DNA from: Propionibacteriaceae bacterium
GTDB taxonomy: Bacteria; Actinomycetota; Actinomycetes; Propionibacteriales; Propionibacteriaceae
Length of the DNA: 64,000 nucleotides
Direction: 5' to 3'
NCBI GenBank assembly: GCA_031261485.1
Contig: JAISJO010000091.1
Location: 62,001 to 126,000, forward strand
The notes beneath the pieces are model-generated. The model ran no database searches. It saw nothing but the letters and a program-made list of their open reading frames with translations, and was not told the origin of the DNA. Positions within the stretch are counted from its first letter, which is position 1. The number at the start of each line of letters is the position of its first letter. The position numbers and the translations under genes were made by a program. Shown here piece after piece: positions 4,379 to 18,748 of this stretch.

Positions 4379-6075
4379 GTACGTCTGGGGTACACATGCT
4401 TGATTTGATGGATGCGACAGTTGCTCAGGATGCACTGAGGGATCCGCATACGAGCAGCGCCGACTTGGCGTTCATCGCTGAAAACCATCCGAGCCTGCGC
4501 CTTCTGGTCGCCCACCACGGTGAGGCCGATCCGGCCTTGCTTGACTGGCTCAAGGATTTGGGAGACCCAGCGGTGTCGGCGGCTGTGCAGTATCGACAGG
4601 CTCTGGCGGCGAGACCTGTTCCCTCGACCCTGCCGACGCCGACACAACCGGAGTTCTTGCCGATCCCCGAATCGTCATCCACCGAATCGTCGGCTCTTGA
4701 CGCGCATGCTGAGCCTCGGCCGGCTCTTGAGCTCAAACTCACAGGGGCACCCTCAGGCATGACCAGGAGCCGCAGACGCTTGATAGCAATTGTCAGTTGC
4801 GTTGTCGCGTTGACTCTCCTTGTCACTGGTTTTGTTGTCGTGGTGCTTCCGAGAATCATTCCACCGAATCCATGGACTCAAGTCCTCGACAACAGTCCTC
4901 CCTACATGTTCTCCTCTGTGGCGGTTGCTGACAATGGAGATATCATCGCAGCCGGAGTGGTCAGGCCGATTGCAGCCTCCCCCGATGACTACCGCGGCAT
5001 AGACGCGGTTATTGCTCTGTTCGCTGCTAGCGGTGACCTCTTGTGGTCCAAGACCTATGGCGGCAATGACACCGACTGGTTCGGCTCCGTGGCGATTGCT
5101 GGCAATGGTGACATCATCGCTGTGGGATTCACCGACTCATCCGATGGGGACTTCCCCACCACTCATGACGGCTCTGACGCTCTCGTCGCCAGGATTAGTC
5201 CGAAGGGCAATCTCCTATGGGCCAAGACCCTTGGCGGCGATTCCTGGGACATTTTCGAATCTGTGGCGATTGCGGACAATGGTGACATCATCGCAGTCGG
5301 AAGCACGTACTCACTGAGTGGGGACTTCGCGACCACTCATACCCTCCCAGATGCGGTCGTCGCACGATTGAGCCCGACAGGAGACCTCCTGTGGGCCAAC
5401 ACCCGCGGCGATGGTCGTGCGGCATATTACTTTTCCGATGTGGCGGTTGCTGGCAACGGTGACATCATCGCAGTCGGTTGCGACGACTCAGCGAAAACTG
5501 CGGACATGGCCTGTGCGAGCGAGACCGCCAATGCAGTGGTTGCCCGAATCAGCGCAACCGGCGACTTTCTGTGGGTTAAGGAAATCGGCAGCGCTCTTCG
5601 ATATAGGTTCACCTCCCTTGCACTGGCAGACAACGGTGACATCATCGCGGCCGGAGATGGCACCACACCCACCGGACTGAACAATGGCGATGCGGCCATT
5701 GCCCGAATCAGCGCGACCGGCGACATCCTGTGGACCAAGGCCTATGGCGGCTTTGATGCAGACGGGTTCACATCCGTGGCACTTGCCAAGAACGGCGACA
5801 TCATCGCAGTCGGATACACCATCTCGACCAACGGAGACTTCCGCGTCACCCATGACGGTCCCGATGCTGTCGTCGCAGGAATCAGCGCAACCGGAGAGTT
5901 GCTGTGGGCCAATACCTACGGCGGCAGCCGCATCGACCTTTTCAATTCTGTGGCACTCGCCAAGAACGGCGACATCATCGCCGTCGGGTACACAACCTCA
6001 TTGGATGGAGACTTCCCCACCACCCTGGAGGTCGGGGCCGTCGTCGCTCGGTTCACCCCGAAGGGGGAACTCTAG
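4375..6075 (+). CDS. LRV domain membrane protein with repeated beta-propeller-like extracellular domain
   Basis: N-terminal LRV (DPHTSSADLAFIAENHPSL), TM segment, then at least six ~50-aa repeats of the type FxSVAxAxNGDIIAVGxTxSxxGDF...DAVVARISxxGxLLWxxTYGG; 4-nt overlap with the upstream gene. Confidence 0.8.
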   Translation: MSTSGVHMLDLMDATVAQDALRDPHTSSADLAFIAENHPSLRLLVAHHGEADPALLDWLKDLGDPAVSAAVQYRQALAARPVPSTLPTPTQPEFLPIPESSSTESSALDAHAEPRPALELKLTGAPSGMTRSRRRLIAIVSCVVALTLLVTGFVVVVLPRIIPPNPWTQVLDNSPPYMFSSVAVADNGDIIAAGVVRPIAASPDDYRGIDAVIALFAASGDLLWSKTYGGNDTDWFGSVAIAGNGDIIAVGFTDSSDGDFPTTHDGSDALVARISPKGNLLWAKTLGGDSWDIFESVAIADNGDIIAVGSTYSLSGDFATTHTLPDAVVARLSPTGDLLWANTRGDGRAAYYFSDVAVAGNGDIIAVGCDDSAKTADMACASETANAVVARISATGDFLWVKEIGSALRYRFTSLALADNGDIIAAGDGTTPTGLNNGDAAIARISATGDILWTKAYGGFDADGFTSVALAKNGDIIAVGYTISTNGDFRVTHDGPDAVVAGISATGELLWANTYGGSRIDLFNSVALAKNGDIIAVGYTTSLDGDFPTTLEVGAVVARFTPKGEL

Positions 6076-9127: not shown

Positions 9128-9137
9128 GGGGGCGCTG

Positions 9138-9176
9138 CGTCCTGCACACCCGCAACGACACGGAATCATGGATTCG
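9138..9176 (+). pseudogene. Remnant of a ParE toxin C-terminus
   Basis: 37/39 nt identical to 15037-15075 at the 3' end of the parE-like gene; encodes CVLHTRNDTESWIR vs RVLHTRSDTESWIR. Confidence 0.8.
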
Positions 9177-9199
9177 CGTAAGCGGGTCACGTCACCTTG

Positions 9200-9229
9200 A
9201 TTCATGATAGCGAATCCGCTATCATGAAT
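9200..9229. promoter_or_regulatory. Putative autoregulatory operator of the HigBA-like module
   Basis: Perfect 13-bp inverted repeat attcatgatagcg-aatc-cgctatcatgaat ending 2 bp before the toxin start codon. Confidence 0.75.
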
Positions 9230-9231
9230 GT

Positions 9232-9600
9232 GTGAGTCACAAGCCTGAGTTTGACTGGGTTCGCCGAGCAGACGGGACGAGCGAGTTCGAGGATTTCCTA
9301 GCGTCCTTGCCTGTCAAGGATGCCGCGAAACTGCTTGCAGTCATCAGCAACACAGAAAAGCAAGGGCTTGAGGTGGCGATCAGAATGCAATGGGTAAAGA
9401 GACTTGAAGATGATTTCTGCGAATTGCGGTCCATCAGAGGAAGCAATATTCAAAGAGCAATCTACTTCCAGGTCATTGGCACCCAGTATGTGATTACCCA
9501 CGGATTCACGAAGAAGACGCAGAAAACGCCACCCCAAGAGTTGGAGCATGCGCATCAAGTTCGGGAGCGGTATCTGCGACAAGAAGGAGAAGGAAGATGA
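9232..9600 (+). CDS. RelE/HigB-like (phage Gp49-like) toxin
   Basis: EFLASLP..DAAKLLAVISNTEKQGLEVAIRMQWVKRLEDDFCELRSIRGSNIQRAIYFQVIGTQYVITHGFTKKTQKTP; typical of HigB/Gp49. Confidence 0.88.
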   Translation: MSHKPEFDWVRRADGTSEFEDFLASLPVKDAAKLLAVISNTEKQGLEVAIRMQWVKRLEDDFCELRSIRGSNIQRAIYFQVIGTQYVITHGFTKKTQKTPPQELEHAHQVRERYLRQEGEGR

Positions 9601-9878
9601 CCAGAATTGACGAACTGATTGCGGATCGCAGCGAGCATGATTCTGAGTTTGCCCACGCCTACTCGCAAGAGGACGAACGACTCCAGATGGCTGTGGCGCT
9701 CACGGAACTCCGCCAAGCCGAGGGTCTCACGCAGCGGCAACTCGCCAGGCTCGCGGGAAAGCCTCAGTCAACGATTGCACGCATTGAAAACGGCAATATG
9801 AACGCATCACTGAAAGTGCTCAGCGAAATCGCTGCCGCCGTAGGTCGGAAGCTAGAAATCCGATTCGTTGGTGTCTGA
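9597..9878 (+). CDS. XRE-family HigA-like antitoxin
   Basis: HTH LRQAEGLTQRQLARLAGKPQSTIARIENGNMNASLKVLSEIAAAVGRKLEIRF; ATGA overlap with toxin gene. Confidence 0.9.
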   Translation: MTRIDELIADRSEHDSEFAHAYSQEDERLQMAVALTELRQAEGLTQRQLARLAGKPQSTIARIENGNMNASLKVLSEIAAAVGRKLEIRFVGV

Positions 9879-9931
9879 GAATCCTGAACTGGCCAGGGCA
9901 AGACAAACCAGATTCCGCCCCTCCGACTCCC

Positions 9932-10029
9932 TCAGTGAACGAGTAATACGGACTCACTGTTGAGGATTTGGGAGGAGTAGCAGAACCAGACGTCGGAACC
10001 GGGGATGAACTCCACCAAATCGGGCACAA
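9932..10029 (-). pseudogene. 3'-terminal remnant of a DHHW/AlgJ-like acyltransferase gene
   Basis: Reverse strand encodes LVPDLVEFIPGSDVWFCYSSQILNSESVLLVH-stop, 30/32 aa identical to the C-terminus of the intact gene at 15350-16510; offset 5418 bp. Confidence 0.9.
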
Positions 10030-10088
10030 GGGACTGGAACAAAGTACTATTGGAGGACACCCACCGTTCCCACCAAGGAGTTGAGACT

Positions 10089-13000
10089 TTGTGGATAACT
10101 CGTGATGTCGATCTTCCTGAGCAGGTTGTAGAGGCTCATTCGAACGGACGCCTTGTCTTCTTTGTCGGTGCTGGAGCATCAATGAACGCCCCGTCCAGCC
10201 TGCCATCATTCAAGAGGCTTGCTATCGAGTTGGCAGAAATGGCACATGGAACATTCCCTGAAGATCACTACTACGAGCCCATCGACTTCTTTCTGGGATC
10301 ACTGCCAGACAACTTCGATACAAAGACCCACGCCCAGAGAATCCTGGCCAGAGAAGACTCGACACATAATTCGACACACTCCGCAATTGTTCGAGTTGCG
10401 TCGGCAGTTGGTCCGGCAAGAATTGTCACTACCAACTTCGACAACCACCTTGCGTCTGCCGCTGCTGCTGAGAAACTCAATATTGATGACTTGTGGATTG
10501 GACCAGCACTCCCCCTGGGGGATAATTTCGCTGGCATTGTCCACCTCCATGGCTCCGTTCTCCGAGAACCACAAGAGCTCGTCCTCACCGACCGCGACTT
10601 CGGACGCGCCTACCTAACTGATGCTTGGGCAACTCGTTTTCTTCAAAGAATGTTCGGTGAGTTCACAGTGGTCTTCGTTGGCTACAGCCTTGATGATCCG
10701 ATTATGCGATACCTGTCGCTTGGGTTGCAGTCGAACACACAGCGTTACGTGTTGACGGACCGCTCGGATGCCGACAAATGGAGGCATCTTGGTGTCAAGA
10801 CAATTGCGTACCCGGCCAGCGACAATCACGGCGCCCTAGTCGCTGCCTTGTGCGCGTGGGACTCTAGAGCACGGATGGGCCAGTTGAGTCACCGCACTCA
10901 AATGAGCCAGATCCTCGACTCGGGTTCCTTGCCAACACCCGTCGATGGGGACTACCTAGTTGCGAGGATTCGAACCGTGGATGGCGCGCAGGACTTCGCC
11001 CAGTTCGCTAGAGGAACCAGGTGGCTCCTATGGGTAGAGGATCACTCATCAGAATTCCAAGGACTCTTCACTGGTGAAGCGGAGTCGCCAACAGCACGAA
11101 TCCTCAGTGAGTGGTTCTGCCAAGAGTATGTTGCGGATCCAGAATTGACCGGAGCAGCGCTACAAACCGTCCAGAGGCTGGGGCAACACTTTGGCGACTG
11201 TCTCTTCGTGTCTGCGGGCCGGGCTACAGAGCAACTGGGTAGGGCAGACCCGTTGGCTGCGCAGCGTTGGAAGACCCTCCTTGCCACATCCATTGACGGA
11301 AAGTCCACTCCGGCAGACTTGACGTTCATTTTGCCTTACAAGTCCGGCGGCCAACCGGAAGACCCAGCACTGCTTCGAGTTGCTCTGCGTCCTTTCTTAC
11401 AACTCGAGAGATCCTGGTTTCCTAGTTCAACGGACAAGACTCTTCCACCAAACGCTGAATTGAAATGGTACGTGCCAGAGGAAACACTAACGGCTCATGT
11501 CGCAAAGCTAATTGACGATTCAGATGCTAACGACCCATGCATCAGATCACTCTTGGAGGAAGCCCTCAACAGCGCGCTCGACCTTCTTGATGGGTACTTC
11601 GGCGGTGATAACTCAGATTCGCTGACCTTCCGCAGATCTTCGATAGCGGTGCATCCTCAGGACAACTTCAGAGAACCGATCGATGCTCTCATCGATGCAC
11701 TTCGAGACTTTGGGGAGAAAGCGCTCCCTCTAGATCCAAGTCTCCCCAACCGTTGGTGGGCTTTCAAACATGCGCTCTTTCAACGGCTCGCGCTGCATCT
11801 CATTGACTCTGACCTGTCGCGGACGCCAGCTAGCAAACTCCAATGGATTCTTGACCGAAACCTACTCTATGAAACGAAAGTCAAGCATGAGACATACCAG
11901 ATCCTGGCCACAACTGTCGGGCATATTGACGAAACCATGAGAGCCGCCCTCTTGGCTGACATTCTGCATGGCCCTGAATACCCAGAAGACAAGCCTGACG
12001 AAGCTCGTCACGCGGCATATGCGACATACAACTTGCTCGTCTGGATCGCGCAACACGCGCCCAACTGGGAAGAAGCGATAGCCGCACACGACGAGATACG
12101 CACATCGAACCCGGATTTCGAGCCACGTGAGCACCCCGACCTAGACTGGGCCGTGGTCAGCAGCACATGGGGAAGAAATCTCCTGATGGAGCCGGAGGAT
12201 TTCATTCGTTCGGCTGACACGGACTTGGGCAAGGCATTCGATGACCTCCTTGATAACGACTACTCGGAACACAATTTCGACGAGCCAAGTTGGGACGATG
12301 CCCTGTCTCTCTTGCGTCAAGTGGTTGGCATGCGTCCCGACATAGGTCAGAGGCTCTGGCCTATGGTCGTTCAACGAGATCTGGCCGTGGCCAAAGTGGA
12401 CGACCTCCATGGTGCCCTCATCGGCGGCTGGACCTGGTCGAGTCTCGCCGGTTTGGAAGAACCAATTACTATGCTTGTCGCTTCCGAAATCGAGAACCCC
12501 AGGTCAACACGACTTATCAGCGAATATCTCTTCCATCAGATACGCCAGCAGATCGACAGCGACGAATCACCAGCTACAAGAGAAATGCGCCAGATCGCTT
12601 GTGAGCTCTGGGATTCATATCGGGATTCGTTTGCCGACACCAATGATTCTGACAATGCCCCTATCCTCATGAATTCTTGGCCAGGCGAGATCGCTGCCTA
12701 CTGGCTCCAAGAGATAGATAGGCGCTGGCGAAAGAACAGAGAGAACTGGAGTGGGCTCAGCGACACTGAAAAAGCGGCGCTTCGCTCACTTCTTGATGGA
12801 CCGGACCTGACAAAGAACGCGGTGTCTCCGGTACTTGCCAGAGAAACCTTCTTCTTGTTCGCTGCCGACGAAGCCTTCACGACCACGGAGATTTTCCCTC
12901 TGTTCCTAGCGGACAACACGGCAAGCAGAGCCTGGTCTGCATATCTTGATAACCCTCGTTGCAATGATCGAATGCTCGGGCAAGGTTTTCTGAATTGCAT

Positions 13001-13616
13001 TGTCGGCGAATGGGACAGACTCAGCCAACTGAAACCTCGAGGGGCTCAAGACCAATTCTATTCCTTGGTTGCTTCATGTTCGTCTTTCGCTGGAATCACT
13101 TGTCAAGACCGTCAGCGACTCCTATATGGGTCTATCCTTGCGGAGAACGGTGTTCATGCACCCAAGTTCGCGGAGGCAGTCGTTGTTTTCCTTCGAGCCA
13201 AGGAAAATGATGGTGCGCAAGTATGGGATGTGTGGTTACGAGATCATCTGTCCAAGAGGCTTGCAGGTCTCCCGCGAACTGCGAGCGCCGAAGAACTCGA
13301 ACGTTGGGCTGATGCCGTACCGTATCTCGGCGACAAAATACCAGATGCTGTGTCGCTGCTCAAGAATCACCAGATCGGGCTAGGCGACGCGTATCATGAC
13401 CCTAGAATCTCCACTGATATCCTGACCTCATACGGACCTGCGCTAGTAAGTCATCTTGCGGACCGAGTGCTCAACTCATCTCCGACTGGGTTGATGACTG
13501 GGTACTATCTGAGAAAGACAATTGGCGAAATCAAGGGCATCATCGGCCCTGAGGCATGTCAACCCCTCATTGCAGCCGCCATCAGCAGGAGATTCCTCTC
13601 TGAAGACCCTCAATAG
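10089..13616 (+). CDS. SIR2-domain protein, large, with uncharacterised C-terminal region (possible anti-phage NADase-type effector)
   Basis: LVFFVGAGASMNAPSSLPSF, RIVTTNFDNHLASAA, IVHLHGSV, DRDFGRAYLTDAWATRFLQRMF and TVVFVGYSLDDPIMRYL are SIR2-like motifs. ORF track starts at 10005; TTG 10089 with AAGGAG (10075-10080) is preferred here. Confidence 0.85.
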   Translation: MWITRDVDLPEQVVEAHSNGRLVFFVGAGASMNAPSSLPSFKRLAIELAEMAHGTFPEDHYYEPIDFFLGSLPDNFDTKTHAQRILAREDSTHNSTHSAIVRVASAVGPARIVTTNFDNHLASAAAAEKLNIDDLWIGPALPLGDNFAGIVHLHGSVLREPQELVLTDRDFGRAYLTDAWATRFLQRMFGEFTVVFVGYSLDDPIMRYLSLGLQSNTQRYVLTDRSDADKWRHLGVKTIAYPASDNHGALVAALCAWDSRARMGQLSHRTQMSQILDSGSLPTPVDGDYLVARIRTVDGAQDFAQFARGTRWLLWVEDHSSEFQGLFTGEAESPTARILSEWFCQEYVADPELTGAALQTVQRLGQHFGDCLFVSAGRATEQLGRADPLAAQRWKTLLATSIDGKSTPADLTFILPYKSGGQPEDPALLRVALRPFLQLERSWFPSSTDKTLPPNAELKWYVPEETLTAHVAKLIDDSDANDPCIRSLLEEALNSALDLLDGYFGGDNSDSLTFRRSSIAVHPQDNFREPIDALIDALRDFGEKALPLDPSLPNRWWAFKHALFQRLALHLIDSDLSRTPASKLQWILDRNLLYETKVKHETYQILATTVGHIDETMRAALLADILHGPEYPEDKPDEARHAAYATYNLLVWIAQHAPNWEEAIAAHDEIRTSNPDFEPREHPDLDWAVVSSTWGRNLLMEPEDFIRSADTDLGKAFDDLLDNDYSEHNFDEPSWDDALSLLRQVVGMRPDIGQRLWPMVVQRDLAVAKVDDLHGALIGGWTWSSLAGLEEPITMLVASEIENPRSTRLISEYLFHQIRQQIDSDESPATREMRQIACELWDSYRDSFADTNDSDNAPILMNSWPGEIAAYWLQEIDRRWRKNRENWSGLSDTEKAALRSLLDGPDLTKNAVSPVLARETFFLFAADEAFTTTEIFPLFLADNTASRAWSAYLDNPRCNDRMLGQGFLNCIVGEWDRLSQLKPRGAQDQFYSLVASCSSFAGITCQDRQRLLYGSILAENGVHAPKFAEAVVVFLRAKENDGAQVWDVWLRDHLSKRLAGLPRTASAEELERWADAVPYLGDKIPDAVSLLKNHQIGLGDAYHDPRISTDILTSYGPALVSHLADRVLNSSPTGLMTGYYLRKTIGEIKGIIGPEACQPLIAAAISRRFLSEDPQ

Positions 13617-13807: not shown

Positions 13808-14053
13808 ATGACGCCATCGACCACAATCAGAGTGCCAGTGCCTCTCCATGAGCGACTGAGCCAGTCCGCGAGCAGAATGGAACAGACCCTGGCCCAATAC
13901 ATTGAAGCGATGATGAATCGGTTGGATGAAGAGGACTTCTGGAACGCTTGGGAGGAACAGGCGGCAGACGCGGACACTGAGACGCGCATCCTCGACGGGA
14001 CTCTGCGTGACGGACTCGTTGAGGACTCCTTCGACTGGGGGAGCCTGGCGTGA
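13808..14053 (+). CDS. Ribbon-helix-helix/MazE-like antitoxin
   Basis: STTIRVPVPLHERLSQSASRMEQTLAQYIEAMM followed by an acidic tail; overlaps the MazF-like gene by 4 nt. Confidence 0.75.
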   Translation: MTPSTTIRVPVPLHERLSQSASRMEQTLAQYIEAMMNRLDEEDFWNAWEEQAADADTETRILDGTLRDGLVEDSFDWGSLA

Positions 14054-14370
14054 AGCGTGGAGAGATTTACTTGTGCGATTTCGGGGCAGAGCCTCTGCCC
14101 AGCGAGGCGGGGTTCCTGCGGCCTGCCGTTGTGGTGTCCGATGAGCGCTTGGGCCGTGGTGGGCCGGTCATCGTGCTTCCGGTCACGTCGACTCGCAGGG
14201 CGTACGTGACACACGTCGAACTGGACGGCGTTCTTCCGGTCACAAGCTATGTCCAGTGCGAACAGGTAAGAGCTATTTCCCCTTCGCGCCTGGGCAAACT
14301 CCTCGGCCATGTGGATTCGGTGGCGATGCTTCAGATAGACACGATCCTGCGTCGAATCATGAGACTGTGA
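14050..14370 (+). CDS. MazF/PemK-like endoribonuclease toxin
   Basis: KRGEIYLCDFGAEPLPSEAGFLRPAVVVSDERLG...IVLPVTST...YVQCEQVRAISPSRLGKLLGHVD. Confidence 0.92.
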   Translation: MKRGEIYLCDFGAEPLPSEAGFLRPAVVVSDERLGRGGPVIVLPVTSTRRAYVTHVELDGVLPVTSYVQCEQVRAISPSRLGKLLGHVDSVAMLQIDTILRRIMRL

Positions 14371-14526: not shown

Positions 14527-14751
14527 ATGACGACGATGAATATCTCAATCCCAGACACGATGCGGGACTTTGTGGAGAGTCGGGTTGGTGAAGGAACGTT
14601 TGCCACATCAAGTGAGTATTTCCGGGACCTCGTGAGGCGCGACCAGGAACGTACACAGATGCGCGCGTTGATCCTTGATGGTGCTGCGTCGGAGCTGGAG
14701 GGGCCGATGGATGATCAGTTCTTCGCTGAATTGAGAGCGCGTGCCCGCTAG
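14527..14751 (+). CDS. ParD-like antitoxin
   Basis: MNISIPDTMRDFVESRVGEGTFATSSEYFRDLVRRDQER. Confidence 0.9.
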   Translation: MTTMNISIPDTMRDFVESRVGEGTFATSSEYFRDLVRRDQERTQMRALILDGAASELEGPMDDQFFAELRARAR

Positions 14752-15094
14752 AGCGCCCAACGGATCCGCGGTGAAACCAGTCATCCGTCGACAGCGGGCA
14801 CGACTAGATATTGAAGACGCTGTGGACTATTACGTTGCGGTTGCTGGGGAGGATATCGCGGCAGACTTTCTTGATGCGGTCCAAGCCGAGGTAGCCCTCA
14901 TTGGCCAATACCCAGAGATTGGCTCTCAGAGACTGGGATACGAGTGGGGCATTCCGGGACTTCGCACTCGCTTTCTTGACCGATTTCCGTATGGTCTGTT
15001 CTATGTTGACTTGCCTGAACACGTAGAGGTCTGGCGCGTCCTGCATACCCGCAGCGACACGGAATCATGGATTCGGGCGACGGCTTCCGACTAG
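14741..15094 (+). CDS. ParE-like toxin
   Basis: ARLDIEDAVDYYVAVAGEDIAADFLDAVQAEVALIGQYPEIGSQRLG...RFPYGLFYVD; overlaps parD-like gene. Confidence 0.9.
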   Translation: MPARAPNGSAVKPVIRRQRARLDIEDAVDYYVAVAGEDIAADFLDAVQAEVALIGQYPEIGSQRLGYEWGIPGLRTRFLDRFPYGLFYVDLPEHVEVWRVLHTRSDTESWIRATASD

Positions 15095-15102
15095 GTGCGA
15101 CG

Positions 15103-15241
15103 GATTTTGGCCTACTCCGAGCGTTTTCACCACTCGGGGACGAGTTTGGATCGAAGTTGGCCGGAAAGCGGCCTGGAAATGGGCGGACTTTGGACCAACT
15201 CCGTGCCCTGCCCTTGGAATCCGCCCGTAAAGGTCAAAGTT
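15103..15241. repeat. 139-bp element, copy 1
   Basis: Aligns without gaps to 31861-31999 and 63856-63994; termini gattttggcc / ggtcaaagtt. Confidence 0.8.
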
Positions 15242-15267
15242 CGACTAGCATGCCCCCGACTTCTCCA

Positions 15268-15352
15268 CCCACACGCTGACTAACGCAGCTCGTCACTCTG
15301 CGCGAAGTCGCAAAATGACAGAGAACGCGGTCAAATTACCAGCGTTCCCCTA
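15268..15352. repeat. Short copy of the GTCATTCTGCGCGAAGTCGC/CTAGGGAA repeat family
   Basis: cgctgactaacgcagctcgtcactctgcgcgaagtcgcaaaatgac...gcgttcccctag. Confidence 0.7.
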
Positions 15353-16510
15353 GTGCACAAGTAATACGGACTCACTGTTGAGGATTTGGGAGGAATAGCA
15401 GAACCAGACGTCGGAACCGGGGACGAAGTCGACCAAGTCGGGCACGAGTTTCCAATCGACGTACCTCAGGTCGATGAGGGTGACTTGGGCGTACGACTGG
15501 GCGAGCAGGGGCGCGATGGAGGACCCGAAAGAGTCGCGGAAGATGTATAAGTGCTTGTCAGAGGGTGCGTTCGCGTTCGTGAGGGTAACCAAGGGAGTCG
15601 CCCCGCGCAGGAAGAGGTCGTAAGGGTCTGGGCCCGCGAAACGGTTGAGGTCGTACACCGGCCCGTCCTCCCAGGCGAGGGTCTTGGCATTGAGGTAAGA
15701 AGCGGTGATGGACTCGGGGAGGTCCACGTACGTCATGACATCATCGGCCATAGGTAAGGCGAGTTGCCCTGGGTACACCCCCGAGAAGAGCCCCGCTGTC
15801 TCGATGGGAGTCAGGGTGGGTGGCGCGAAGCCCATTGTCTGCGCCAGGGTCGCGGTCACGCCGGTCAGCTTGGTCTGGTCCCAATGGAGGTCGGTGCGGT
15901 AGAAATCCTGAGCTGACAAGGAGTTTGTCAGGTCGACGGGGGCCAGATCGGGGAGGTCTGCGCCGAGAAGGGCGCGGGCTTGGTCGGGGTCGAAGCCGGG
16001 CAGGTACCTCCCTGCGTACACCGACTTGTCGGGAATGAAGGAGTAATAGATGTTCATCCCCTCCAACGAATCGGCGACTCGCTGAATCTTGGCAGCCGCC
16101 TTGTGCCAGGACGCCTCATTGATGGGCTGGAACTTGCCCGCCCCGGAGTCCCCGAAGTACAAGCCCGACTTGTCTGTTTGGAAGTACACCCCGAAGACGG
16201 TCAGTGCCTTGAGGGTACGCCACTGGTCGCGCCCGATGAAGGAATCAGCCGCGTAGTCCTCGAAGTCGTCCATGAATTGTGCGGAGGACACCGGCCCCCA
16301 TGAAGGAATAGGCAATGTCGCAAGTGTACGTCGTTCAGATTGGGAGACGACGGGCGCGGTGTAGAACAGGTTGGCGAGGAAGATCCCGCCCAAAGTGACC
16401 ACGACTACGCCAAACGTCAGGATGTGCCTCAAGGTCAGACGGGTGCCGTCGCCTGCGGGCTGTGTGTCTTCCACTTTCACCTCCTCTCCCTTGAGCGGAC
16501 AGTCTTGCAC
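15350..16510 (-). CDS. DHHW-family / AlgJ-AlgX-like SGNH acyltransferase-type membrane protein
   Basis: N-terminal TM, FIPDKSVYAGRYLPG, FYRTDLHWDQTKLTG (DHHW-type motif), IFRDSFGSSIAPLLAQSY. Confidence 0.8.
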   Translation of the reverse strand: MQDCPLKGEEVKVEDTQPAGDGTRLTLRHILTFGVVVVTLGGIFLANLFYTAPVVSQSERRTLATLPIPSWGPVSSAQFMDDFEDYAADSFIGRDQWRTLKALTVFGVYFQTDKSGLYFGDSGAGKFQPINEASWHKAAAKIQRVADSLEGMNIYYSFIPDKSVYAGRYLPGFDPDQARALLGADLPDLAPVDLTNSLSAQDFYRTDLHWDQTKLTGVTATLAQTMGFAPPTLTPIETAGLFSGVYPGQLALPMADDVMTYVDLPESITASYLNAKTLAWEDGPVYDLNRFAGPDPYDLFLRGATPLVTLTNANAPSDKHLYIFRDSFGSSIAPLLAQSYAQVTLIDLRYVDWKLVPDLVDFVPGSDVWFCYSSQILNSESVLLVH

Positions 16511-16681: not shown

Positions 16682-18091
16682 CTAGAACCTGAAGTAGATA
16701 AAGGGGTTGAACGACCCGTCGACCAGGCATGCCGTGACAACGAGCAATCCTAGCGCGACCAGGACCGGCTCGACCACGGTGTACACCTTCTTCTTTGCAA
16801 CCCACCCCATGACCTTCTTGGGCAGCGGGGTCGCTCCGATGATGCCGACGAGCAAGGGCACCGCATAGCTACGAAGGTAGTACACACTCTCAGGACCGAC
16901 AACACTCGACGCGCCGAACCCTGCCATGGCCGCCAGTGTGGTACCCGCGTCAGCGAAGCCGCCCGAATCGAAGAGCACCCACGAAATTGCCACGATGACA
17001 AGGGTGTACACATTCCCCATCCCACGAGGAAGTCTCTGCAATACCCCGCCGAAAGCGTACTTCTCCACGGCCAGAACCACAGCGAACCACAGTCCCCAGG
17101 CAATGAACTGCCAGCCCGCCCCATGCCAGAAACCGGTCAGACCCCAAACAATGGCGATGTTGAGCAGATGCCGAGGCACACTGACCCGATTGCCGCCCAA
17201 TGGGATGTACACATAGTCGCGGAACCAACTGGAAAGACTCATGTGCCAGCGCCGCCAGAACGCGGTGATGGAGGCCGCGACATAGGGGTAATTGAAGTTC
17301 TCCGGGAACCGGAAGCCCAGTACCGTCCCGAGTCCGATGGCCATATCGGAGTACCCAGAGAAGTCGAAATAGATCTGGAGGGCAAACGCGACAACGTACA
17401 ACCACGCGGCCAGGAAAGACGTGTCCCCGCTGGCGCGGATGACCTCGACCAACTCAGCCATGACATTGGCAACGAGTACTTTCTTGGCCAACCCGACGAC
17501 GAAACGCCGCCCGCCTTCGGCGAAACCAACGAGGGTGTGCCGCCGAGTGACTAGTGCGGCGGCGACCTCCGCATACCTAACAATGGGCCCAGCGACGAGT
17601 TGAGGGAACATGATGACGTAACAGGCGAAGTCGAGGGGGTTGCGCTGAACCTCGATCTTTCCCCGATACAAATCGATGGCGTAGCTCAGCATTTGGAAGG
17701 TGTAGAAGCTGATACCGATGGGCAAAGCGATTCGGAGCAAGGGAACGTGGACGCCGAAAGCGGCATCGAAGCTGGAGATGAAGAAGTCGGCGTACTTGAA
17801 ATACGCGAGAACCCCCAGCCCGACGACCAAAGATGCAATGAGAAATACTCTCCTCCAAGCGATGCGCTCTCGGTAGCGATCCATGAGCAGGCTGAGCACC
17901 CACGCGACAAGGACTTCTGCCATCATGAGCAGGCAGTACACGGGCTCGCCCCAGGCGTAGAAGACCAGGCTGGCAAGGAGAAGGACGAGGTTACGCCAGC
18001 GGGTCTTCCCGCCGGGCATGGGTGTGAGGAAGTACACCGCCAAGGTGACGGGCAAGAAGTAATACAGGAAGGTCACAGACGAGAAGAGCAT
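16682..18091 (-). CDS. MBOAT-family membrane-bound O-acyltransferase (AlgI-like)
   Basis: LFSSVTFLYYFLPVTLAVYFL, SFYTFQMLSYAIDLYRG, FPQLVAGPIVRY, YFDFSGYSDMAIG, TGFWHGAGWQFIAWG. Confidence 0.95.
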   Translation of the reverse strand: MLFSSVTFLYYFLPVTLAVYFLTPMPGGKTRWRNLVLLLASLVFYAWGEPVYCLLMMAEVLVAWVLSLLMDRYRERIAWRRVFLIASLVVGLGVLAYFKYADFFISSFDAAFGVHVPLLRIALPIGISFYTFQMLSYAIDLYRGKIEVQRNPLDFACYVIMFPQLVAGPIVRYAEVAAALVTRRHTLVGFAEGGRRFVVGLAKKVLVANVMAELVEVIRASGDTSFLAAWLYVVAFALQIYFDFSGYSDMAIGLGTVLGFRFPENFNYPYVAASITAFWRRWHMSLSSWFRDYVYIPLGGNRVSVPRHLLNIAIVWGLTGFWHGAGWQFIAWGLWFAVVLAVEKYAFGGVLQRLPRGMGNVYTLVIVAISWVLFDSGGFADAGTTLAAMAGFGASSVVGPESVYYLRSYAVPLLVGIIGATPLPKKVMGWVAKKKVYTVVEPVLVALGLLVVTACLVDGSFNPFIYFRF

Positions 18092-18205
18092 CCCGTGGTC
18101 CTGCCTCCTTTACCCGTCAGCAATCATTCATTGTCATTCTGCGCAGAGTCGCAGGATGACACACGCAGGACGATGGAGACATGTGCCGACATCGAGTGAC
18201 TGCGA

Positions 18206-18748
18206 CTACGGCCCGGTGAAGAACGTGTTCGCCTCGCCGACATTCCCCTCGGCCAAGTCCGAGAAGCCTTGAACGAGGGCATCCACGGCCGCGGCTTGCC
18301 CAACGGCGAGCAGGATGTAGCTGCCAGAGATGACGACGACCGACTTGTCGGGCATGACGCAGATCCACTTCTTAGAATCGAAGCCGTCAGCGATCTTCTT
18401 GGCCACAGTTGCGGCTTGTGTGATGTCCTGAACCTTGACAATGGCCACTTCGTGAGCGGAGGTCGTGAGGAGGGCAGTGGCTGCGGCGGCCTGGGACACG
18501 AGGGCCTCATAGTCCTCTGTGCTCAGGCCCAGCATCTGTTGAGACTCGGATGCCTCCACGGGGCGCAGTTCGGACATCGGCATTTTCTCTGTCAGTTTCG
18601 ACCCTGCCTTGTCAAGGACCGACAGGAGCACCGCTGGGGTCTCGCCCGTCAGAGTGTCGGTCTCAGGGGCGGTGGGAGCGCCGATGCTCGAACATCCTCC
18701 GGTGACCGCTAGGGCGGCGATGGCTAATACAGCAAGAATCCTCTTCAT
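18206..18748 (-). CDS. Putative lipoprotein (DUF4358-like)
   Basis: Lipobox VTGGCSS; position next to DHHW and MBOAT genes and ~180-aa size fit DUF4358. Confidence 0.6.
   Translation of the reverse strand: MKRILAVLAIAALAVTGGCSSIGAPTAPETDTLTGETPAVLLSVLDKAGSKLTEKMPMSELRPVEASESQQMLGLSTEDYEALVSQAAAATALLTTSAHEVAIVKVQDITQAATVAKKIADGFDSKKWICVMPDKSVVVISGSYILLAVGQAAAVDALVQGFSDLAEGNVGEANTFFTGP

Follow-up and report, generated by a model that had tools for sequence, protein, structure and literature searches.

Two stranded gene ends in a toxin–antitoxin- and defence-rich interval point to a possible serial joining of two haplotypes

Results

The window, i.e. the whole 64,000-nt stretch of DNA that was analysed, carries an interval rich in toxin–antitoxin (TA) and defence genes between pgi and a convergent DHHW-like gene (Table 1). 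From the pgi side, higBA is followed by a gene for a SIR2-domain protein, by mazEF and by parDE. The G+C content is 0.53 for higBA and 0.54 for the SIR2 gene, compared to 0.61 for pgi, DHHW and mntH.

Table 1 Features of the interval and of the adjoining operon, in window coordinates
Feature	Position	Strand	Basis
Stranded parE′ 3′ tail	9137–9176	+	Frame RCVLHTRNDTESWIR..., open to TGA 9205–9207; 38/40 identical to parE 15036–15075
Perfect 13-bp inverted repeat upstream of higB	9200–9229		Likely HigA operator; overlaps weak promoter-like match 9197–9225
higB-like toxin (Gp49/DUF891)	9232–9600	+	Pfam PF05973, E=2.7e-17
higA-like antitoxin (HTH_3)	9597–9878	+	Pfam PF01381, E=2.8e-14
Stranded DHHW′ 3′ tail	9932–10030	−	Last 32 codons and TGA stop of a putative diverged allele; repeat, dN/dS pattern and polarity
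SIR2-domain defence protein, 1175 aa, Dsr1-like N-terminus	10089–13616	+	SIR2_2 PF13289, E=5.8e-19
Small antitoxin gene, mazE position	13808–14053	+	Precedes and overlaps mazF; Pfam gives no match above cut-off
mazF/pemK toxin	14050–14370	+	Pfam PF02452, E=6.7e-22
parD-like antitoxin (weak)	14527–14751	+	Pfam PF03693, E=0.02, below cut-off; position before parE
parE toxin, intact counterpart of the 9137 tail	14741–15094	+	Pfam PF05016, E=1.2e-9
Spacer between parE and DHHW stops	15095–15349		REP-like element 15265–15316; higBA in the equivalent place of the 9137–10030 version
Intact DHHW/AlgX-like gene, acylation operon	15350–16510	−	DHHW PF14286, E=0.0049, below cut-off; homologues 35–58% identical beside MBOAT
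MBOAT acyltransferase, DHHW operon	16682–18091	−	Pfam PF03062, E=3.5e-24
DUF4358-like lipoprotein gene, DHHW operon	18206–18748	−	PF14270, E=1.1e-4, below cut-off; conserved beside MBOAT–DHHW in relatives

The SIR2 protein resembles Dsr1 models in its N-terminal part only (E=1.3e-43 and 1.8e-61). Against the model of the Dsr1 defence sirtuin, NF041818, it scores 208 bits, below the cut-off of 1400, and the match falls mainly on residues 31–294. The Dsr1-like part amounts to the N-terminal ~270 residues, and the C-terminal ~900 residues have no family match. A homologue with 44% identity (genome G078) is located beside a tRNA-Ala gene, which suggests island carriage. Translation probably starts at TTG 10089, with AAGGAG at 10075. 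An ATG at 10005, inside the DHHW remnant described below, was rejected as start codon because the homologues in G021 and G078 begin with MWITGDVE, matching TTG 10089 with its ribosome-binding site.

The inverted repeat in front of higB is probably the HigA operator. Between 9100 and 10120 one promoter-like match was found, positioned over this operator, with 0.6 expected by chance. A simple scan predicted neither a + strand terminator nor a promoter-like match between higA and the SIR2 gene, so that SIR2 may, speculatively, be read through from the HigA-controlled promoter.

On the right-hand side, the DHHW-like gene belongs to a lipoprotein–MBOAT–DHHW operon (15350–16510 and 16682–18748). It had been labelled a DHHW acyltransferase in the first-pass annotation, a loose description: the PF14286 score of 16.6 bits lies below the gathering cut-off of 25, and the gene shares its operon with an MBOAT acyltransferase. 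The DHHW gene is found in 2 of 19 genomes of the genus, in 6 of 199 genomes of the family (that of the window included) and in a few Clostridia MAGs; the operon is missing in most of the genus, and its Clostridia MAG relatives reach 59% identity. As the operon is rare and present in few Clostridia MAGs, these surface-polysaccharide acylation genes were probably acquired horizontally.

The window also contains repeats. A dispersed palindromic REP-like element (TTCTGCGACTTCGCGCAGAATGAC) has 11 matches (609, 15292, 16614, 18133, 18791, 32860, 49008, 50089, 57586, 62692 and 62817) where 0 are expected, and some copies sit inside larger inverted repeats of 50–132 nt (49981–50112/62692–62823). At 518–737 there is a tandem pair of 97-nt repeats with 96% identity, one with a REP-like element between the copies. 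The gene at 4918–6023 contains seven imperfect repeats of ~174 nt (beta-propeller-like, DNGDIIAVG), and its leucine-rich-variant-like N-terminus has similar counterparts at 1287 and 24562.

Between higA and the SIR2 gene, the reverse strand reads LVPDLVEFIPGSDVWFCYSSQILNSESVLLVH-stop (TGA), and the intact DHHW-like gene, ending at 15350, has the C-terminus LVPDLVDFVPGSDVWFCYSSQILNSESVLLVH-stop (TAG). A repeat search of the window aligned this remnant to 15346–15448 with 90% identity over 103 nt, as a direct repeat with an offset of 5418. BLAST against the whole 2.8-Mb genome returned the same pair with E=1.1e-34 and no third copy, which excludes chance. The homology stops at 10030 and, at its other end, only a few bases from the stop codon. 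The presence of a diverged DHHW 3′ end upstream of SIR2, as proposed in the first-pass annotation, is thus real; its end coordinate of 10029 was right to within one base, and the two copies do bracket SIR2, mazEF and parDE as direct repeats. Between the remnant and the SIR2 start lie 58 bp. A simple scan for terminators and promoters gave nothing within 9932–10030, and the remnant itself probably has no function.

A second direct repeat had been missed. The 40-nt parE′ tail starts 9 bp past the stop codon of pgi, and its right-hand copy is the end of parE (VLHTRSDTESWIR). In its own genome it is unique except for parE itself (E=1.3e-11). Taken together, 9137–10030 is co-linear with 15036–15448: parE end, middle segment and DHHW end follow each other in the same order and orientation. 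The middle segment consists of higBA in the left version, the only complete genes within 9137–10030, and of a 255-bp spacer with a REP-like repeat in the right version. Judged from the sequence, 9137–10030 represents the entire interval from the parE end to the DHHW end a second time, in diverged form. As parE′ tail, higBA and DHHW′ tail form another version of the parE–DHHW interval, the structure is better described as two haplotypes in series than simply as one inserted block. The earlier description of a single SIR2–mazEF–parDE block inserted at the DHHW 3′ end is incomplete with respect to the parE′ tail.

The divergence of the DHHW′ tail was analysed codon by codon. Over 32 codons (96 nt) it differs from the intact end at eight nucleotides, six of them synonymous, and the stop codons differ as well. 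There are two amino acid differences (E/D and I/V), no indel and no internal stop; NG86 estimates are dS 0.34 and dN 0.027. If all changes had occurred at random on the remnant, two or fewer amino acid changes would be expected with P=0.008, and in a simulation of decay in place, where the remnant drifts and the intact gene is constrained, with P of about 0.05. For polarity, a member of another genus of the family (G073) and one of the same genus (G014) served as outgroups. Two changes on the remnant lineage can be polarised, both synonymous. At the E/D site the outgroup state is E in both genomes, placing this change on the intact lineage; E is also the commonest residue among homologues and is favoured by those of Clostridia. 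The second difference, where the remnant has I and the intact gene V, is assigned to the intact lineage weakly, by G073 alone. The remnant shows no decay and appears to have belonged, until recently, to an allele that was functional. Its synonymous changes, together with amino acid differences that fall on the intact gene, argue for an origin from a diverged functional allele, as had been suggested on first inspection. Given so short a sequence, this evidence is of moderate strength, and the case for an allele from elsewhere is based on eight nucleotide differences.

Relatives were searched for a donor. Neither two complete DHHW copies nor a DHHW remnant occurs in the other DHHW-bearing relatives among the 199 family genomes; two complete genes in relatives, which according to the first-pass annotation would indicate simple decay of a tandem paralogue, were looked for in the family genomes and not found. 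The relatives carry single copies at other loci, 41–58% identical and mostly followed by unrelated genes. In G073, G090, G603 and G653, DHHW ends beside unrelated genes, with no TA module recognised and no island there. In G014, the other genus member with DHHW (L047, G014:C184:1-6130), the same gene adjoins a different TA/defence set: within 5 kb of its 3′ end lie genes for two toxins of the ParE type, both accompanied by a small ORF as partner, and for an nSTAND-like NTPase of 934 aa. Because the DHHW 3′ end adjoins TA modules and this NTPase also in G014, two species have TA/defence content beside DHHW, which either arose there or was co-inherited.

The neighbours of pgi vary across the genus, and no conserved gene order after pgi was found that this window shares. 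Homologues of higBA with ~62–71% identity are present in G012 and G073 at other loci; both loci were rejected as donor haplotype, as no parE or DHHW tail lies alongside. In G073 (L098, G073:C171, 1793-2983), the higBA homologue adjoins a homologue (39% identical) of window ORF 803–1165; in this window, that ORF and higBA are 8 kb apart. Neither version of the interval was found as a parental or donor haplotype in the genus or family genomes. Viral contigs contained no relatives of DHHW or parE, phages no higBA, and plasmids only distant RelE-type matches to higBA in lactic-acid bacteria.

Discussion

The arrangement is best explained by two haplotypes of one TA/defence-rich pgi–DHHW interval that were joined head to tail, a reading to which we assign a probability of about one half. 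The left version would comprise pgi, a deletion, the parE′ tail, higBA and the DHHW′ tail, and the right version SIR2, mazEF, parDE, the spacer and the convergent DHHW gene. Incoming chromosomal DNA of a close relative would have undergone homologous recombination within the DHHW/MBOAT operon at one end. At the other end, an illegitimate join would have been made ~99 bp inside the resident DHHW′ gene, 58 bp ahead of the SIR2 start. The intact gene would then retain the 3′ end of one allele, with the tail of the other allele stranded at the far junction, and a separate non-homologous deletion or junction would have removed the redundant parDE′ body next to pgi. The sequence directly supports the existence of two tails, an order co-linear with the intact parE–DHHW interval, and a divergence of the DHHW tail like that between alleles. 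The last of these also favours the earlier proposal that recombination with a related haplotype left the tail at the far junction. As neither parental haplotype was found, the direction of transfer, the order of events and the pathway are what we infer from this single arrangement.

At both the DHHW′/SIR2 and the pgi/parE′ junction, no matching continuation is present in the sequence. The joining of two haplotypes needs two non-homologous junctions, and the capture of a single 894-bp piece would be almost as economical. This capture is the closest rival, albeit a somewhat unlikely one: a fragment of ~894 bp (parE′ tail, higBA and DHHW′ tail) from a relative would have been inserted illegitimately between pgi and SIR2 and selected for its complete, addictive TA pair. 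Both tails would then stem from one event, in agreement with higBA being the sole complete content of 9137–10030. Conversely, a short fragment would have to form two illegitimate junctions without guiding homology, and both of its ends must chance to fall within ~100 bp of the intergenic interval.

Duplication in place is judged unlikely. Here, an insertion with long target duplication, or a tandem duplication of parDE, higBA and the DHHW end, would have come first, and the redundant copy would then have undergone deletion and drift. Direct repeats of ~100 bp around selfish gene pairs are described as insertion with long target duplication (PMC3031569, PMC4978471), and the simulated decay in place with its P of about 0.05 leaves some room for such a history. 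Still, target duplications are identical at birth, whereas the copies here differ by 8%, mostly at synonymous positions and without indel or stop, and every polarisable change on the remnant is synonymous. Moreover, the losses would have to be complementary: one copy would have lost parD together with the body of parE, the other higBA.

Site-specific integration at an att-like DHHW 3′ end, by which a SIR2–mazEF–parDE element brought a new tail and displaced the old one, is highly improbable. The geometry does fit, with a displaced 3′ tail, 103-nt direct repeats of the target-gene end (90% identity) and an identical core of 35 bp as the longest shared stretch, and a tail carried by the element would suit the mostly synonymous divergence. 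The reading is weakened because no tyrosine-integrase gene is present on the 132-kb contig: a genome-wide search, confined to tyrosine integrases (PF00589), gave five matches, all on other contigs and none on C42. No recombinase domain occurs among the annotated proteins of the island, an island is missing from the DHHW 3′ end in four of the five other relatives that carry the gene, and the parE tail beside pgi would be left unexplained. The att-like site suggested in the first-pass annotation is disfavoured on these grounds. An assembly artefact joining two co-existing strains has a similarly small probability. In its favour, the genome is a 112-contig draft, and a strain mixture would be expected to give two alleles of the same tail. 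Against it, the non-homologous junctions at ~9136 and ~10031 share no sequence by which an assembler might be misled, and identity in the repeat is unbroken over ~35 nt at most.

The joining of haplotypes in series, through homology on one side or through illegitimate recombination, is part of the ordinary evolution of hotspots; what is unusual is how legible the scars are. Such a scar is of a known general type and does not represent a new system. The locus is a readable example of how genes for TA systems and phage defence build up where no mobile element is obvious. Its two stranded gene ends indicate that variable islands can stack and not just swap, and the residual coding pattern allows inference of a former donor allele. 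The general process being already known, the value of the case lies in its clear scars and in a simple search that is usable on other defence islands, i.e. for short gene-end remnants ordered like an intact neighbouring interval. A more far-reaching and quite improbable proposal is that the parE and DHHW 3′ ends are recurrent exchange points, at which TA/defence modules are added serially by general recombination without a mobile-element enzyme; if so, such loci would hold an ordered fossil record of the gene tails of earlier haplotypes.

Comparison with known systems

Integrative elements targeted to tRNA genes or coding sequences form islands at gene 3′ ends, and the 3′ tail that they displace ends up, directly repeated, on the opposite side of the island. 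The DHHW′ tail shares this displaced, directly repeated 3′ end, but the contig carries no tyrosine integrase and a second, unrelated gene tail is present.

Insertion with long target duplication was described for restriction-modification genes (Nobusato et al. 2000, cited in PMC3031569 and PMC4978471). As summarised in these citing papers, it likewise places a selfish or defence block, integrase-less, between ~100-bp direct repeats containing a portion of a neighbouring gene. The repeats there are the duplicated target, whereas here their divergence is mostly synonymous and a second gene tail accompanies them.

Hotspots that lack integrases are exchanged by homologous recombination in the genes on either side (Oliveira et al. 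2017, PMC5635113). The present interval resembles them in that conserved genes enclose a variable set of TA/defence genes and that mobile-element genes are lacking. It differs in that the versions are stacked serially rather than swapped, with both scars visible, and in that the flanking DHHW gene is itself accessory.

In homology-facilitated illegitimate recombination (HFIR), homologous integration at one end is combined with illegitimate joining at the other (PMC3240628). Homology at one end and an illegitimate other end would strand a fragment of a recipient gene at the illegitimate junction, similar to what is proposed here for DHHW′. HFIR is known from laboratory transformation and conjugation, whereas the present case is proposed from one genome, and no donor was found.
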